Assembly (NCBI GenBank): GCA_026692905.1
Contig: JAPLNL010000098.1
Coordinates: forward strand, 1-64,000
DNA length: 64,000 bases
DNA from: Planctomycetota bacterium
GTDB lineage: Bacteria; Planctomycetota; Planctomycetia; Pirellulales; Pirellulaceae
Direction: 5' to 3'
In this document: positions 3,063-63,999 of the stretch, piece after piece
How the letters are laid out: each line of letters opens with the position of its first letter
How positions within the stretch are numbered: the stretch's first letter is position 1
Notes under the pieces: model-generated
Database searches by the model: none
What the model saw: the letters and a program-made list of their open reading frames with translations, nothing else
Told to the model about the DNA's origin: nothing
Program-made: the position numbers and the translations under genes

Positions 3063-3842
3063 CTACTGAGACAAACTTCGACGACGCATGGCTTCTGTGA
3101 CTTCTTCCAGCAAAGTCAACCGACCTCCATAGGTTCGACGCAGGTTATCCGGAGTAAACGTGGTTTGCATCGCCCCCCATGCTACAGCTCTCACGTTGAG
3201 CAAAATGAGATGATCGAAGTACTCTGGGACCGTGTGCAAATCATGATGGACCACCAAAATCGTTTTCCCTCGCGATTGCTGATGACGCAGAACTTGAATA
3301 ATGGATTGTTCGGTGGCTGCATCGACGGCAGCGAACGGCTCATCCATCAGAAACACATTTGCCGATTGAACGAGTGCTCGCGCCAAAAAAGTACGTTGTT
3401 GTTGGCCGCCCGATAGCTGGCTTATCTGGCGATCTGCAAGTTCCGCAATTCCGACTTGCTCCAAAGCGTCCATAGACCGCTTGTGATGCTCTTTGCGAAC
3501 AGGCATAAACCAACCAATCTCACGATACAATCCCATCGTAACGACATCGAGTACTGTCGCTGGAAAATCCCAATCGACGGACTCGCGTTGCGGTACATAA
3601 GCGATATGCTGCCGCTGCATCGCAAGCGGCTCGCCATGAATCTCAATCGTTCCCGAAATACGCGGAACCATGTCCATGATCGATTTGATCAACGTGCTTT
3701 TGCCTGCCCCATTTGGACCGACCAAGCCCACCAGAGTTCCTTGAGGTATCGAAAGATTGATTTCCCAAAGCACGGGCTTTCGTTGATAGGCGACTGTCAA
3801 ATCAGCAATGCGGATCGCAGTCTTCGGTTCGTTGTCCGTCAT
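3063..3842 (-). CDS. Manganese/zinc ABC transporter ATP-binding protein
   Basis: A 259-residue ABC ATPase of the TroB/MntB/ZnuC type. Walker [10 protein letters not shown] at 42-50, Q-loop region [20 protein letters not shown] at 82-101, signature LSGGQQQR at 143-150, Walker B FLMDEP at 164-169, D-loop, and the switch His in VVHHD near 199. The [13 protein letters not shown] stretch is characteristic of the Mn/Zn/Fe importer ATPases. It overlaps the upstream lipoprotein gene by four bases (ATGA), so the two are coupled. The expected membrane permease is not next to it; thiD follows instead. A permease of this family lies at the opposite edge of the window. Confidence 0.92.
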
Positions 3843-4813
3843 TCTGTCGGCTCGCCGCCTAGTGCTTTGGTTATAATTCTAAAATTATGCTTCATCATGC
3901 CTTCGTAGGTCTCGGCATCGCTGCCTATCGGCCCCATCGCATCGGAGTAAAGTTCACCACCAATTGAGACGGTGGTCTTCTTTTCCGCCGCCCCCTCCAT
4001 GATCGAATGCACCGATTTGGGTGGAACGCTCGACTCAACAAACACTGACGGGATCTTTTTCTCGACTAGCATATCTACCAACTCACGTATGCGTCTCAAT
4101 CCAGCTTCTGATGAAGTCGAAACCCCCTGAATCCCTTCAACCTGCAATCCATAACGCCTCCCGAAATAGCGGAACGCATCGTGGGATGTGATCAAGATTC
4201 GCTGGTGGGTAGGAATGGTTTCTATCCAACGCTTCCCAAGTGCATCCAGCTTGCCCAATCGATCTCGAAGCTGACTGGCCCGCTCCGTAAAGACTTCCGA
4301 TTGCGATGGGATGCGTTCCTTGAGTTCTCTTTCGATTAACTGAGTCGCGGCGGACCATAATGTAACGTCCATCCAGATATGCGGATCAGCGGTTTCGTGC
4401 TCCGGATCGCCTAGCGCGGATTCCTTGGGAATCGCGTCCGCGAGAGCGATATGTTTTTTTTTGCCTATCGGTTTGAGGCTCAGCAAATCGCTCATGCGTC
4501 CTTCGAGCTTAAAGCCATTATAGAAAACAACATCCGCAGCACGTATTGCTTTTACATCGTCTGTGTTCGGGCGATACAAATGCGGATCGACCCCATCGCG
4601 CATCAACTGCTCCACATGCACTTGTTCGCCTCCGATTTGACGGACCATGTCAGCTACCATGCCTGTCGTGGCAACCACAACTAACTTGCCGGAATGGGAT
4701 GGAGCCTTGGCAGTTGAAGAGTCTGTCGAATCGCAACCTGGCAAGGCCATCAAGCAAAGCAGATTCCCACAAAAAAGAACCGGGGAGATGAAAGCGATGA
4801 TTCGTCTAGTCAA
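3839..4813 (-). CDS. TroA-like metal-binding lipoprotein of an ABC importer
   Basis: A 324-residue cluster-9 (ZnuA/TroA) binding protein. A lipobox LPGC puts the lipidated Cys at residue 27. Likely metal ligands are His78 (DPHLY), His145 (DPHIW), His211 (TSHDAF) and Asp291 (YSDAMG). Their spacing of 67, 66 and 80 residues almost matches treponemal TroA, whose ligands are three His and one Asp, and argues for zinc or manganese. The His-rich loop of ZnuA is missing. The start is TTG at 4813; an upstream ATG is out of frame. It is first gene of the operon with the ATPase and thiD; see the promoter entry. Confidence 0.9.
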
Positions 4814-5727: not shown

Positions 5728-6368
5728 TGAGACCGTTCAACTAAGTGTTTTTGGATTTGCAAAAGAATGCCGCGAGCAACTTCTTGCTTAGGACCATTGA
5801 ACTGCCCAACAATCGAACCGTCTCGCAAGATAACTTCCACAGAGTTGTCTTCTGAATTCATGGCCTCAGCGCTGTTCGAAACCATCATGTCACAGCACTT
5901 GCGAGACATTTTGATGATGGCTCGAAACCGAACATCTTCGGTTTCCAATGCGAAACCAACGACCCACTGTTTTGGCCCTTTGGAGGCGCCCAAAGTCGCG
6001 ATGATATCCGGTGTTTCGATCAAGGCTAGCTGCAACCCCTCGCCTGTCTTTGAAAGCTTGTGACTTTCGATATGCCGGGGCATGTAGTCGCACGGCGCCG
6101 CGGCCCCGATTAAACCATCGGCACTTTGGTATGCAAGCCGCGTCGCATCAAGCATCTCTTGAGTGGTAATCACATCGACTACCTTAGCAGCAGACGGATA
6201 AGCAACGCTAACGGGCCCGCTGATGATGGTGACTTCGTGCCCAAGCTCAAGGGTCGCTTGCGCTAAAGCAGCACCCATGCGTCCACTGGAGCCATTGGTC
6301 AGATATCGGACGGGGTCCAAGTATTGTCTGGTCGGTCCCGAAGTGATAACAATGCGAGCCATGAGCAT
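5724..6368 (-). CDS. coaB: Phosphopantothenate-cysteine ligase (separate CoaB)
   Basis: A 214-residue protein covering only the CoaB half of the usual CoaBC. The family opening ITSGPTRQYLDPVRYLTN and SSGRMG is at 8-31; further on come the Lys-containing HKLSKTG and the LIETPDI motif. It joins 4'-phosphopantothenate to cysteine, using CTP in most bacteria. It lies directly downstream of coaC, so the two steps are encoded side by side but as separate proteins. The ATG at 6362 is an equally good start. Its 3' end overlaps the deacetylase start. Confidence 0.88.
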   Translation of the reverse strand: MLMARIVITSGPTRQYLDPVRYLTNGSSGRMGAALAQATLELGHEVTIISGPVSVAYPSAAKVVDVITTQEMLDATRLAYQSADGLIGAAAPCDYMPRHIESHKLSKTGEGLQLALIETPDIIATLGASKGPKQWVVGFALETEDVRFRAIIKMSRKCCDMMVSNSAEAMNSEDNSVEVILRDGSIVGQFNGPKQEVARGILLQIQKHLVERSQ

Positions 6369-6383
6369 CTTCGAGGGAAAGTG

Positions 6384-6917
6384 TTACGCCAAGAACGGTT
6401 CACAAGCGGAGAGAATGGCTTCGGGTTCTGACATGCGACCTTCGCCCATCCGGCGACACGAAAGCCAACCGGAGTCAGGTCCGACAATGCGAACTCCATC
6501 CGCTTTCAATTGATCCACATTGCGAACCACCGCCGGTTTCTCCCACATCGGAGCGCTCATTGCGGGCGCAAATACAATCGGACACTCCATATTAAGGTAC
6601 AGGGTCGAGAGCAAACAATCCGCTAGGCCGAATGCACAGCTTGCAATGATGTGAGCTGTCGCCGGAGCAACGATAAAAAGCTTGCAGTCGGTCGCCAATT
6701 CAATGTGCGGTCCGAGTGGATACCGAGAATCGAACGCGCTAATCACCGGAGCTCGGTCGCATAACGCCGAGAAAGTTGCAACCCCAATGAACTTCTCGGC
6801 AGCCTCGGTCATGACAACAGATACGTCCAGACCGCGTTGAGCCAAGCGGCTAACCAGAGCCGCTGATTTGAATGCGGCGATGCCGCCAGAAATCCCTACA
6901 ACGACGCGTTGACTCAT
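6384..6917 (-). CDS. coaC: Phosphopantothenoylcysteine decarboxylase (separate CoaC)
   Basis: A 177-residue flavoprotein of the HFCD family that decarboxylates 4'-phosphopantothenoyl-cysteine using FMN. Active-site His71 (GPHIELA) and Cys154 (GWLSCRRMGEGRM) align with His75 and Cys158 of E. coli Dfp at a constant offset of four. At the same offset the conserved Asn125 of the PAMN motif is Ser121 here (PAMSAPMW). The ATG at 6917 has AAGGA just upstream, inside the end of rpoZ, five bases away. With the ligase next door it makes phosphopantetheine for CoA. Confidence 0.88.
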   Translation of the reverse strand: MSQRVVVGISGGIAAFKSAALVSRLAQRGLDVSVVMTEAAEKFIGVATFSALCDRAPVISAFDSRYPLGPHIELATDCKLFIVAPATAHIIASCAFGLADCLLSTLYLNMECPIVFAPAMSAPMWEKPAVVRNVDQLKADGVRIVGPDSGWLSCRRMGEGRMSEPEAILSACEPFLA

Positions 6918-6922
6918 CGTCC

Positions 6923-7186
6923 TTAAAGGTCGCTTGTATCCAAGTCGAGCAAATCGCCGAGGTCCGCTGTTTCGCTGAGCACCTTGAGTTCACCCGAAGT
7001 GGTCAAGTAGATCTTGTCTTGCAAAATCTCTTGGATCACAACTTCCATTTTGTCATCGGTATTCATTTCCACCAAAGGCCGACTGCCACGGTTGATTTGA
7101 ACCAAACGCTTTTGGATGAGCGTGGACAACTTAAAGCGACCGCCAACCTTGTTGACGATGAACTCTTCTTTCAATTCTTCGAGCAT
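6923..7186 (-). CDS. rpoZ: RNA polymerase omega subunit
   Basis: An 87-residue omega subunit that helps assemble and stabilise the polymerase beta' subunit. Visible is the core [19 protein letters not shown] followed by a helix ending in MEVVIQEIL. The ATG at 7186 has AAGGAG twelve bases upstream, better than the longer frame from 7225. This start places its first 16 bases within the end of gmk, so translation is probably coupled. The order gmk-rpoZ-coaBC is common in bacteria, which supports the call for a short and divergent protein. Confidence 0.87.
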
Positions 7187-7767
7187 GGGACCTTTTCTCC
7201 TTGGTACTGAACGAGCAATTTGCACAATTGCTGAACAGTTGTATCGATCTCGTCGTTTATGACTTCATGTGTATAGTGATGCCGGAGAGACAGTTCCTCC
7301 GCCGCTACATCCAACCTTCTTTGGATCGAGTCTTGGGAATCGGTACCGCGATTGCGAAGCCGTTTCTCAAGTTCGGCCATTGAGCCCGGGTGGACAAAGA
7401 TGGTGATCGCTTGCGGATAGCCTTGCAAAACCGCAAGAGCCCCTTGGACATCAATCTCTAATAATACCCACTTCCCTTCGCTTAAGCCAGCCGAAACCAC
7501 GTTTCGGAGAGTGCCATACCAATACCCACGACCAAAAACCTCCTTGCACTCCAAAAACTCCCCGGCCTGACGCTTGGCCTGGAATTCATCGTCGGTCAGA
7601 AAAATGTAGTCCCTACCGTTTTCCTCTCCCGGACGAGGAGGACGCGTGGTGGCCGAAACACTCAAAACCAATGGCAACCCCGAATCGACCATCAATCGCT
7701 GAACTACGGTCGATTTTCCGGACCCAGACGGCCCCGAGATAATGATAAGATTGCCTGGAATGGTCAT
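7171..7767 (-). CDS. gmk: Guanylate kinase
   Basis: A 198-residue enzyme phosphorylating GMP to GDP. P-loop GPSGSGKST at 12-20, the GMP-binding [17 protein letters not shown] stretch at about 39-55, GRGYWYGT and [10 protein letters not shown] follow in the normal order. Length is normal for the family. It starts 10 bases after yicC ends; a GGAG lies 13 bases before the ATG. It is part of the yicC-to-bshB1 operon. Confidence 0.95.
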
Positions 7768-7777
7768 AATTCAACGT

Positions 7778-8656
7778 CTACTCCACATTTTGGACTAGCT
7801 CTCGCATCTGTTCGATGCCCGTTTTGATCGAGACCACAAGCTGGGAAACTTGAGCGTCGTTGGCTTTTGAACCTATCGTGTTGGTCTCTCGAAAGAGCTC
7901 TTGGATGAGAAAGTCAAGACGCCTGCCTTGGCTTTCCTTGGTCGAAAGTGCATCTTGGAACTGTTTCAGATGACTGCCAAGCCGGGTGATTTCTTCGGAA
8001 ATATCGCATCTATCTGCATAGGCAAGCACTTCACGGAGCAAGTCGATATCGGATACTTGATGCCCCACTTGTGCCAACCCATTGCGAATACGCTGCTCCA
8101 TTTTCGAGCGAAATTCAGCAACAACTTCAGGGGCACGCACTTCGATCATGGATTTACTCGCTTCAATCTGCGAAAGGGTTTCCAAAAACTGCGATCGCAT
8201 TGCCTCCCCTTCTTTGAGTCGCATGGACTGCAAATCACTCAGTGCAGCACGAACCGTCAACTGAACGACCTCAAGCAACTTTTCATCGTCTTGCTGTCGA
8301 TTGGATTCCAGCACGCCTGGCAGCAACAAAAGTTGGCCGAGGTCATAGCCAAACTGAATTCCAAGTCGATCGGCAACGGACTGCGACTTGGTCAAATAGT
8401 CCTCAAGAGTTTTCTGATTGATAGCTGCAGCATTGCTGCGCCCCACTTGGGTCACACGAACCGAAACCGTGACGCTCCCACGCTTCAGAGTGTCACGAAT
8501 GATTGACTCAAGCTGCGGTTCGAGGGCCGAAGCCGCCTCTGAGATTTTCGAAACAACTTTGAGATAACGGTTGTTGACCGTGCGAATCTCAATGTCAATT
8601 GAAAAATCACCGTGCCGTTGGGCGGCTTGACCATGCCCGGTCATACTTAATAGCAA
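7778..8656 (-). CDS. yicC: YicC/YloC family endoribonuclease-like protein
   Basis: A 292-residue YicC homologue: N-terminal SMTGHGQA, then EIRTVNNRYLKV, and a C-terminal DFLIQELFRETNTIGSKAND with the family's acidic and Asn residues. YicC proteins have been described as endoribonucleases acting in RNA turnover. The predicted start is TTG at 8656, which keeps the four residues that normally precede MTG; ATG at 8644 is the alternative. It is the first gene of the operon with gmk, rpoZ, coaC, coaB and bshB1. Confidence 0.9.
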   Translation of the reverse strand: MLLSMTGHGQAAQRHGDFSIDIEIRTVNNRYLKVVSKISEAASALEPQLESIIRDTLKRGSVTVSVRVTQVGRSNAAAINQKTLEDYLTKSQSVADRLGIQFGYDLGQLLLLPGVLESNRQQDDEKLLEVVQLTVRAALSDLQSMRLKEGEAMRSQFLETLSQIEASKSMIEVRAPEVVAEFRSKMEQRIRNGLAQVGHQVSDIDLLREVLAYADRCDISEEITRLGSHLKQFQDALSTKESQGRRLDFLIQELFRETNTIGSKANDAQVSQLVVSIKTGIEQMRELVQNVE

Positions 8657-61966: not shown

Positions 61967-63067
61967 TTACTTTTTCGAGTCCATTCCATCCCTGAGCCCA
62001 TTTCCGGAAAGGAAAGAAACAGTCCCTTTGACGACGGACGAATCACTCATCAAAAACGAGTGAATGACGGGGACGGATACAAGTTCGGCCATCCCCTCCA
62101 ATGCCGCTTCCTCAACGGTGACCACGCCATCGCTGGGGCCGCTTAGCAAGGGGTTTTGAAGTGGGATTTTGGAAATATCACCCGCAACGATCGCAAATGG
62201 ACATGGGGGAGTCCCTAATCCGTCACGAAATGTATCCCACGATGGCCCCAATTGCATCCCTGAATTCCCGGTGATCGTTTCAAATATACCTAATCGCGAC
62301 AATTTCGCAGCAAATGTCGATCCCTGGTTCGGTGGGCCGAGCATCACCACCCGATTTAGCCTTGGCAAGACTTGCTTTGGATCGCCATTACGCTGCCACT
62401 CTCCAATCGCATGCCGGAAAACAATATTCCCCATACTATGACCAACCATGCTGATCCGAGGCGCCCCAGGCAGATTTTCAACCAGTTCCCGCAACGCAGC
62501 CGAATGTTTGGAAATGGGATCGCGAGTACTCGCGTAGGAAAATCCGATTGCCGTGCGAACGCGGGCGGTATCTGAACGTTGTGTTTTCGATTCTGTGTCA
62601 ACTCGCGCCAACTCGCGTTGAACAGGCTCCATGCTTCCAGCCGATCGCATCAATCCATGCATCAACAGTACGACTTCCTGCGGCGGCGGCACTGACGGGT
62701 TGGCCGACGCAATTTTCGCCAACTCATCAATCATCGCTTTGCGTCCGCCCCAAGCACGACGAATGGAATTCGGATCGATCAACCGCCAATGATCGAGCGT
62801 GCTGTTATACTGAACTCGCCAACCTTGCCACCAACGATAGTCGGTCCAAAACTGCTTGCCGCCCAAAGTTGGCAAAGAAAGGTTCCAAAGCTTCGCATCG
62901 TCTTTCAATTCAATCGCCTCTTCATCCGTCTTGGTTGACGCATTTTCTGAATCGCCCTGCATCGCAACCGCTGGGGCGACCAATGCAAAACTGATAAGCA
63001 ACACAACAGACAACATGTTGCCAATCATCCTTGTTGGCTCAATCGATGCCACAATTAAGAAACGCAT
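61967..63067 (-). CDS. Exported lipase-like alpha/beta hydrolase
   Basis: A 366-residue protein with an N-terminal hydrophobic signal (MLSVVLLISFALVAPAVAMQ). The oxyanion-type motif VVLLMHGLMRSAGSM and the nucleophile elbow SMVGHSMGNIVFRHAI identify a PGAP1/lipase-type hydrolase; GPPNQGSTFA and a later SDGVVTVEEAAL (catalytic Asp) and VIHSFLM (His) complete the triad. Substrate unknown, probably an ester or lipid in the envelope. Its ATG at 63067 lies five bases past the permease-repressor stop, with GGAAGGAT inside the end of that gene, so the two are co-transcribed. Confidence 0.85.
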   Translation of the reverse strand: MRFLIVASIEPTRMIGNMLSVVLLISFALVAPAVAMQGDSENASTKTDEEAIELKDDAKLWNLSLPTLGGKQFWTDYRWWQGWRVQYNSTLDHWRLIDPNSIRRAWGGRKAMIDELAKIASANPSVPPPQEVVLLMHGLMRSAGSMEPVQRELARVDTESKTQRSDTARVRTAIGFSYASTRDPISKHSAALRELVENLPGAPRISMVGHSMGNIVFRHAIGEWQRNGDPKQVLPRLNRVVMLGPPNQGSTFAAKLSRLGIFETITGNSGMQLGPSWDTFRDGLGTPPCPFAIVAGDISKIPLQNPLLSGPSDGVVTVEEAALEGMAELVSVPVIHSFLMSDSSVVKGTVSFLSGNGLRDGMDSKK

Positions 63068-63072
63068 GTGAA

Positions 63073-63999
63073 CTATCCTTCCGGTGGAATACTGCGACCA
63101 TGTGGATCCATGGCAGATTGCCCCGTCTCCGCATCTAGCTTGTCGCGCATCGAGGAACTTGTAAAGTGCTCCAATGACTCAGCCTGAGCATGCAACCTTG
63201 CGTCGCTTGCGCTCACTTCGACCGATAAATACTGCTCCCACAATCGGTGCGATCGAATCAAATTCTGGGCCACACGATATCCTTGATCTGTCAGCGAGAC
63301 CGTTGTTTGATTCATGGAAATGCAACCCGATCGAACAAGATCGGAACCGACCGAACTGAACTTTTTTAACGATATCTTGAGCTTCGACGCAATCTCCTTG
63401 CATTCTAAAACAGCTCGATTCCCAACGTTTTTGCCCTCGGTCAGCGTTCGCTCGGAATTTCGGTAGAGCAGCGCCAACACATCCTCGCCAATGATTTTTC
63501 TGGCGACCGATCGCTGCTCGAGCCACCGCACCAATACTCCCGATTTGGGACTAACCACCACTGCTAGAACCAAGAACAAACCGCTTGCAACCGCCATCAT
63601 GGCTGCCGAATTGACCGATTTGTATCCCAAGGCGGCTGGAACAAATCGCGCCAGTAAATGCCCAAAAATCGCTGCTGCCGCCCCAATCACCACGCTCAAC
63701 AACACCATGCGATGCAACCGCTTGCATAACAAGAATGCCGTCGCCGCCGGAACAATTAACATGGCCACGACCAAAATATTTCCCACCGCTTCAAAGCTAG
63801 CAATACTCGTGATCGCCACCAACGACGCTAGCAGATAATGAAAGTACGTCGGCGAGATCCCTTGCGCTTGCGACAACAGTGGATCGAACGTTGAAATCTG
63901 CCACTGTTTGAAAAAAACGGCAATACAGACAGCATTGAGAAGACACACCACACTCAAAGTGATGACGACGGACGGCACAGCCCCAAACGAAGTTTCCAC
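63073..63999 (-). CDS. ABC-3 metal permease fused to a DtxR/MntR-type repressor (5' end cut)
   Basis: A frame of 308 residues continuing beyond the window edge, so the N-terminus is missing. Residues about 1-165 contain the last membrane helices of a Mn/Zn/Fe ABC permease (ILVVAMLIVPAATAFLLCKRL; AIFGHLLARFVPAALG). A linker then leads to a DtxR/MntR repressor: the GEDVLALLYR helix, a winged-helix (ASKLKISLKKFSSVGSDLVRSGCI, VSLTDQGYRVAQNLIRSHRLWEQYL) and the metal-binding dimerisation part AESLEHFTSSSM and DPHGRSIP. The His and the Glu-x-x-Glu-His ligands are present. The same fusion is known as YtgCR in Chlamydia, where it is cleaved. Confidence 0.88.
   Translation of the reverse strand: METSFGAVPSVVITLSVVCLLNAVCIAVFFKQWQISTFDPLLSQAQGISPTYFHYLLASLVAITSIASFEAVGNILVVAMLIVPAATAFLLCKRLHRMVLLSVVIGAAAAIFGHLLARFVPAALGYKSVNSAAMMAVASGLFLVLAVVVSPKSGVLVRWLEQRSVARKIIGEDVLALLYRNSERTLTEGKNVGNRAVLECKEIASKLKISLKKFSSVGSDLVRSGCISMNQTTVSLTDQGYRVAQNLIRSHRLWEQYLSVEVSASDARLHAQAESLEHFTSSSMRDKLDAETGQSAMDPHGRSIPPEG

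Follow-up and report, generated by a model that had tools for sequence, protein, structure and literature searches.

The window, that is, the whole 64,000-nucleotide stretch of DNA that was analysed (contig JAPLNL010000098.1 of a Planctomycetota bacterium of the family Pirellulaceae), ends inside a gene for an ABC-3 permease fused to a DtxR-type domain. The frame that occupies 63073-63999 on the minus strand represents the last 308 codons of a 443-codon gene, which runs past the window edge and starts with an ATG at C98:64404, outside the window. The complete gene, hereafter P0001 or permease A-DtxR, spans 63073-64404 in contig coordinates and encodes 443 amino acids. The features of the window are as follows.

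63073 to 63999, minus strand: in-window part of the permease A-DtxR gene (P0001), from extension of the reading frame on the contig.
63556 to 63999, minus strand: ABC-3 permease part, residues up to 283, from the Pfam ABC-3 and 7kyp matches; roughly 135 N-terminal residues fall outside the window.
63439 to 63555, minus strand: linker and helix 1, residues 284-322, with the conserved ligand Asp308, from the domain model and the alignment; predicted as a single long helix into the DtxR domain.
63295 to 63438, minus strand: winged helix-turn-helix (HTH), residues 323-370, from the predicted fold; without the family recognition signature and diverging fast.
63076 to 63294, minus strand: metal-binding and dimerisation domain, residues 371-443, with H386, E390, H405, E409, E412 and H413, from Pfam Fe_dep_repr_C and ligand counts.
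3839 to 4813, minus strand: ZnuA-family substrate-binding protein, the only one found in the genome search.
3063 to 3842, minus strand: ABC ATPase adjoining the binding protein, with no permease beside it; its relatives lie beside fused permeases in other genera.

A gene for a DUF676-type serine esterase (window 61967-63067), also on the minus strand, begins 5 bases beyond the end of the fused gene. This order is kept in L010, a frame that contains a relative of the esterase follows in L009, and the order is not kept in L011.

The original prediction had described an ABC-3 metal permease continuing in frame into a full DtxR/MntR repressor of the chlamydial YtgCR type, and had proposed completing the gene beyond the window edge and searching it with HMMs. 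The completed protein matched Pfam ABC-3 over residues 11-274 (E 3e-43; 148.7 bits against a cut-off of 20.1) and Pfam Fe_dep_repr_C (PF02742) over residues 372-440 (E 1.5e-16), and both domains were present in all 14 fused proteins scanned. The NCBIfam MntR model aligned with residues 329-441 (E 4.9e-13), far under the model's own cut-off. Among PDB sequences, P0001 matched the manganese ABC permease 7kyp over residues 13-287 (E 2.7e-33) and MntR/ScaR/SloR-type regulators over approximately residues 328-443. Full-length matches across the permease/DtxR junction were obtained in 24 of the 27 genomes of the genus, the source genome included; two of the exceptions (G199 and G198) gave partial matches, and G207 gave none of the P0001 type. 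Because the frame is unbroken in these 24 genomes, a frameshift or sequencing error at the junction was ruled out, and the in-frame passage from an ABC-3 permease to a DtxR/MntR-type domain was borne out by Pfam, by PDB sequences and by the genus. A separate repressor made from an internal start was also considered and rejected, as no start with a Shine-Dalgarno-like site is common to the genes. No in-frame start at positions 255-340 had such a site in more than 2 of the 24 fused genes; Met269 is ATG in 24/24 genes, but it falls at the permease end and has no Shine-Dalgarno-like site.

For the spread of the fusion, a profile of the 14 fused proteins was searched against 195 Planctomycetota genomes (completeness of at least 90% requested), and a fusion was called when the match ran from profile position 15 or lower to position 400 or higher of 433. 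The fusion was found in at least 66 of the 195 genomes, with 106 genes among the matches listed; matches were counted down to E 2.3e-70, the later listed ones being without a full-length match, and the true number may exceed 66. Among the matches listed, 40 of the 66 fusion genomes had at least two fused permeases. On the same basis, the fusion was present in 25 of 27 genomes of the window's class, 19 of them with two, and in 41 of 168 genomes outside the class. A fusion confined to one species was ruled out by this search. In a tree of 92 DtxR-type domains (17 of 109 rows were left out as near copies), the 49 fused and 43 stand-alone domains fell on opposite sides of a branch (support 100/98). 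In Planctomycetota, the fusion is real, old and common.

Plasmids and viral contigs were searched as well. Permease matches occurred in 1357 plasmid records, and in one of them (Rhizobium, L126) the match reached 80% query coverage. This record was rejected as a fusion outside the phylum: it carries tandem ABC-3 permeases and an ATPase in broken-looking frames, adjoined by an intact binding protein, with nothing recognisable as DtxR by eye. The seven viral loci all matched within query residues 12-299, the permease part. We found no naming of this fusion in planctomycetes in the non-subscription literature searched; such domain combinations are listed in databases such as InterPro.

The source genome encodes two ABC-3 permeases, both fused: permease A (P0001) and permease B, a 434-residue protein on contig C118. 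In the domain tree, the B-type tails formed one group (86/82) and the A-type tails did not form a single group. The binding protein and ATPase at window 3063-4813 lie 60 kb from permease A, and in this draft assembly of 148 contigs the importer genes are split three ways. In two genomes of the same genus (G196 and G197), B and A are still side by side, and the operon seems to have been split within the genus. Among 20 relatives' loci, which were chosen for holding fusions, the order binding protein-ATPase-permease B-permease A was observed in 11, the second permease not always being fully fused; A was also apart in G018 and G152, which are among the genomes of those loci. Membership of P0001 in an importer is read from a binding protein and an ATPase that are present in the genome but non-adjacent, and that form one locus with the permeases in relatives.

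Separate regulators were found too. The source genome has one stand-alone MntR-like protein, on contig C67. Stand-alone Fe_dep_repr_C proteins were detected in 13 of the 27 genus genomes and were not found in the other 14, some of which are incomplete, so that the fused proteins may be the sole DtxR-type proteins there. Fur-family proteins were present in 27/27.

To compare the tails position by position, we aligned 43 A-type, 17 B-type and 47 distinct stand-alone proteins. The stand-alone set is non-random: it had 49 rows, of which 28 came from the search and the relatives' loci, one from the source genome and 20 were hand-picked to widen divergence, and two second copies were removed. Excluded as second copies were L001, L002, L005, L007, L063-L065, L073, L075 and L035, and L028 was excluded as a near copy of L029 from another species. 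Ten matches that were neither clearly fused nor stand-alone, together with L034 and L039 (no match at E ≤ 1e-8), were unused.

The metal ligands of MntR are listed as Asp8, Glu11, His77, Glu99, Glu102 and His103 (PMC6860424). According to the same source, Glu11 is conserved in the MntR proteins of B. subtilis and E. coli, and Asp8 and Glu99 are conserved across the MntR family. The ligand positions of P0001 are Asp308 (MntR Asp8), Ala311 (Glu11), His386, Glu390, His405, Glu409, Glu412 and His413, and the earlier reading of these ligands, including the Asp present and the Ala at the Glu11 position, agreed with the alignment. The equivalent of Asp308 is Asp in 42 of the 43 A-type fusions, and H386, E390, H405, E412 and H413 are each found in 43/43. 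As Ala or Gly occupies the Glu11 position in 40 of the 43 A-type fusions, the replacement is not a defect of P0001. The His-Glu-His metal core was present in 43/43 A-type, 16/17 B-type and 45/47 stand-alone proteins. The B-type tails have altered ligands, with Asp at position 405 in 13 of 17.

These ligand counts bear on a relic hypothesis, in which an old fusion left behind a passive tail whose sole remaining use is to help the permease fold or assemble. The altered ligands of the B-type tails are in its favor, as are some lineages where the metal domain, or even the entire tail, is missing from one member of the permease pair. Against it, the five ligands named above are invariant in the A-type tails, and the mean pN of the A-type metal domain (0.272) matches that of the permease (0.267). 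We consider a passive leftover very unlikely.

The DNA-reading part behaved differently from the metal domain. The N-terminal DNA-binding model PF01325 matched none of the 14 fused proteins (E ≤ 0.01), whereas it matched all 13 stand-alone proteins taken from the best Fe_dep_repr_C matches; PF02742 also matched 13/13 stand-alone DtxRs scanned. Calling the tail a "full" repressor, as the original prediction did, thus overstates the case: the metal and dimerisation domain stood, and the DNA-binding part did not. The recognition triad [TS][VAI][TSN], our own definition read off the stand-alone consensus, was found in 0/43 A-type, 0/17 B-type and 36/47 stand-alone proteins. Neither test is perfect, as 11 of the 47 stand-alone proteins lack the triad, the source genome's own among them, and the source genome's protein scored below the 26-bit cut-off of PF01325 (23.6 bits, E 5.8e-5).

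This stand-alone MntR-like protein of the source genome (L006:1261-1692) has S-A-H instead of the usual T-V-S/T triad. Nine stand-alone DtxR-type proteins from other planctomycete families (L093-L100 and L107) are also without the triad; they mostly carry a CPHGxxIPPG-like tail, and they cluster together on a long branch of the domain tree.

Sequence divergence gave a similar picture. At a metal-domain identity of 0.5-0.6, the mean HTH identity was 0.177 for A-type, 0.272 for B-type and 0.439 for stand-alone proteins, whereas helix 1 identity was 0.508 for A-type against 0.373 for stand-alone proteins. Gaps and length changes occur within and ahead of the HTH in the fused proteins. Within the genus, HTH pN exceeded metal-domain pN in 276/276 A pairs (24 sequences; ratio of means 2.13) and in 230/231 B pairs (22 sequences; ratio of means 2.53), whereas for the stand-alone DtxRs this was the case in 36/78 pairs (13 sequences; ratio 0.96). 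These rate comparisons are descriptions without a p-value, because the pairs share sequences and are non-independent, and synonymous sites are near saturation. Twelve close A pairs of our selection pointed in the same direction, with the HTH faster in 12/12. The A-type HTH had a mean pN of 0.579 against a pS of 0.751, the latter near saturation, and a pN below pS indicates that the stretch is still under some constraint. The tail as a working repressor was not upheld by these data: its recognition helix is without the family signature and evolves fast, unlike the stand-alone DtxRs of the genus.

A repressor released as described for Chlamydia trachomatis has to be weighed at this point. In such a device, a cytoplasmic cut would free the DtxR-type domain, which would dimerise with metal and repress the importer genes. 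The architecture is the same and the core metal ligands are conserved; cleavage and ytg promoter binding are described for the C. trachomatis protein (PMC5599777), and 14 of the 27 genus genomes yielded no stand-alone Fe_dep_repr_C protein. However, the recognition triad is missing from all 60 aligned fused proteins, the HTH of both fused families, unlike that of the stand-alone DtxRs, diverges at roughly double the rate of the metal domain, and the genes have no common internal start with a Shine-Dalgarno-like site. We regard a released repressor of this kind as unlikely.

The structure models were informative for one part of the tail. The whole-protein model of P0001 was poor (mean pLDDT 45). 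The domain model predicted a winged-helix fold, with block pLDDT means of 90-93 over the HTH, and a helix at model residues 2-39, which correspond to residues 286-323 (block pLDDT means 57-89). The best Foldseek structure match was DR2539 (E 8.6e-4; TM 0.46 by query length), with the sensor half poorly modelled. With a poor whole-protein model and a domain model that is reliable only over the winged helix, the Foldseek ranking carries little weight.

A predicted winged helix together with an HTH pN below pS means that DNA binding could persist with changing specificity. The uncut tail may then act as a repressor tethered to the membrane, sitting on DNA there, with a recognition helix that tracks the operator of each species. 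Besides the fold and the constraint, nine genomes among the matches listed have an HTH-like permease tail and no full sensor match, which is compatible with such a role. The stand-alone DtxRs of the genus, however, hold their HTH as constrained as the metal domain, and the gaps and length changes in and before the HTH of the fused proteins also speak against it. A tethered repressor is, in our judgment, quite unlikely.

In each of these nine genomes (of 195, among the matches listed), a permease aligns with the fused profile no further than position 363-373 of 433, so that the partial matches span the HTH and stop before the sensor. The examples read at sequence level are as follows.

L047:3627-4802, minus strand: permease with a winged-helix-like tail and without the DtxR metal domain, from the Pfam scan.
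L048:1515-2744, minus strand: permease with a winged-helix-like tail and without the DtxR metal domain, from the Pfam scan.
L049:3694-4884, minus strand: permease with a winged-helix-like tail and without the DtxR metal domain, from the Pfam scan.
L046 near 6084-8552, plus strand: permease with a winged-helix-like tail, from sequence reading.

The tails of L046-L049 are winged-helix-like by reading, and a fully fused partner permease adjoins each. Fe_dep_repr_C gave no match in the three proteins scanned (L047-L049). In these sensor-less tails, the HTH-like part outlived the sensor, which is the reverse of simple HTH decay. An HTH-like part without a sensor fits a structural or interface role, but it fits a DNA-binding role too. 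In two further frames, L014:2050-3138 and a 563-residue frame of L042, the match to P0001 begins at residue 272 or 281 and ends at 440; these frames represent a fused-type tail without a full permease match.

The contrast between a drifting HTH and a conserved metal-sensing part suggests that the sensing now serves the transporter itself. On balance, we lean slightly toward the reading that P0001 forms one half of the permease pair of an ABC importer for divalent metals (Mn/Fe/Zn class) and carries a DtxR/MntR-derived sensor tail that controls transport itself, by trans-inhibition. The permease and the metal/dimerisation domain are intact, and the other permease of the genome has the same kind of tail. 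The transport-control function would follow from this anatomy and from the trans-inhibition principle of ModABC and MetNI; trans-inhibition by the C-terminal domains of ModC and MetN is described in PMC10710835.

Under the proposed mechanism, cytoplasmic metal, once its level rises, would be bound in the MntR manner, with helix 1 (Asp308) on one side and the dimerisation helices on the other. The linker behind the last membrane helix is predicted to run on into helix 1, and owing to this continuity the paired tails would hold the permease halves. Bound metal could then clamp the two halves through their paired tails, and uptake would be slowed or stopped. The winged helix may be retained as a structural or interface module, and transcriptional control would be left to separate DtxR or Fur proteins.

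A wider reading can be offered tentatively. In Planctomycetota, an entire DtxR-type repressor may possibly have become the on-board metal gauge of an ABC importer, commonly with one tail per permease half and with metal clamping the last membrane helices; the chlamydial YtgCR might in that case descend from the same ancient permease-sensor, as a branch in which DNA binding was kept or regained by cutting the sensor loose. The puzzle of YtgCR is thereby reframed: was its ancestor perhaps a sensor of transport before it was a repressor? With the tail in at least 66 of 195 planctomycete genomes, the group offers a natural and testable system for a transcription factor becoming part of a transporter.

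Compared with known permeases, the core of P0001 is like that of 7kyp, which we take to be PsaC. The 7kyp chain is 290 residues long and is matched as far as its residue 269, which leaves no room for a DtxR domain. With the DtxR-family manganese regulators MntR, ScaR, SloR and DR2539, P0001 has in common the metal/dimerisation domain and most ligands; unlike them, it is fused to a permease, is without the recognition-helix signature and has Ala at the Glu11 position. We know of no described trans-inhibition for ABC-3 manganese, iron or zinc importers or on a permease, and no case of either was found in the literature searched. The closest functional parallels are ModC of ModABC (molybdate) and MetN of MetNI (methionine), whose C-terminal cytoplasmic domains dimerise, bind the substrate being imported and restrict its uptake (PMC10710835), much like the function proposed here. 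The ModC and MetN domains, however, have other folds and reside on the ATPase, whereas the present domain is on the permease and derives from DtxR/MntR, and its trans-inhibition is inferred.

The closest parallel in layout is YtgCR (CT069) of C. trachomatis, which likewise joins a metal ABC permease in frame to a C-terminal DtxR-type domain within a binding-protein-dependent importer. The sizes are similar, with about 49 kDa reported for YtgCR and 443 amino acids here. Bands of about 49 and 28 kDa were read as the uncleaved protein and a cleavage product, and YtgR was reported to bind the ytg promoter (PMC5599777); the model described is that of a DNA-binding fragment of 28-30 kDa (PMC5599777, PMC7755916). 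YtgR is thus reported as cleaved and DNA-binding, whereas the planctomycete fusions that were aligned are without the recognition triad, YtgCR having been compared by description only. Relative to YtgCR as described, the planctomycetes also differ in the frequent presence of two or more fused permeases (40 of the 66 fusion genomes, among the matches listed), in the separate DtxR and Fur proteins of the genus and in the absence of a WWW motif from P0001. Of the YtgCR type predicted for a planctomycete, the layout was confirmed, and the search of 195 genomes showed it to be widespread there, whereas the working repressor tail was not. The layout is known from YtgCR; the planctomycete fusions are a variant of it, marked by their spread across the phylum, by the many genomes in which both permeases carry a tail and by a drifting DNA reader.
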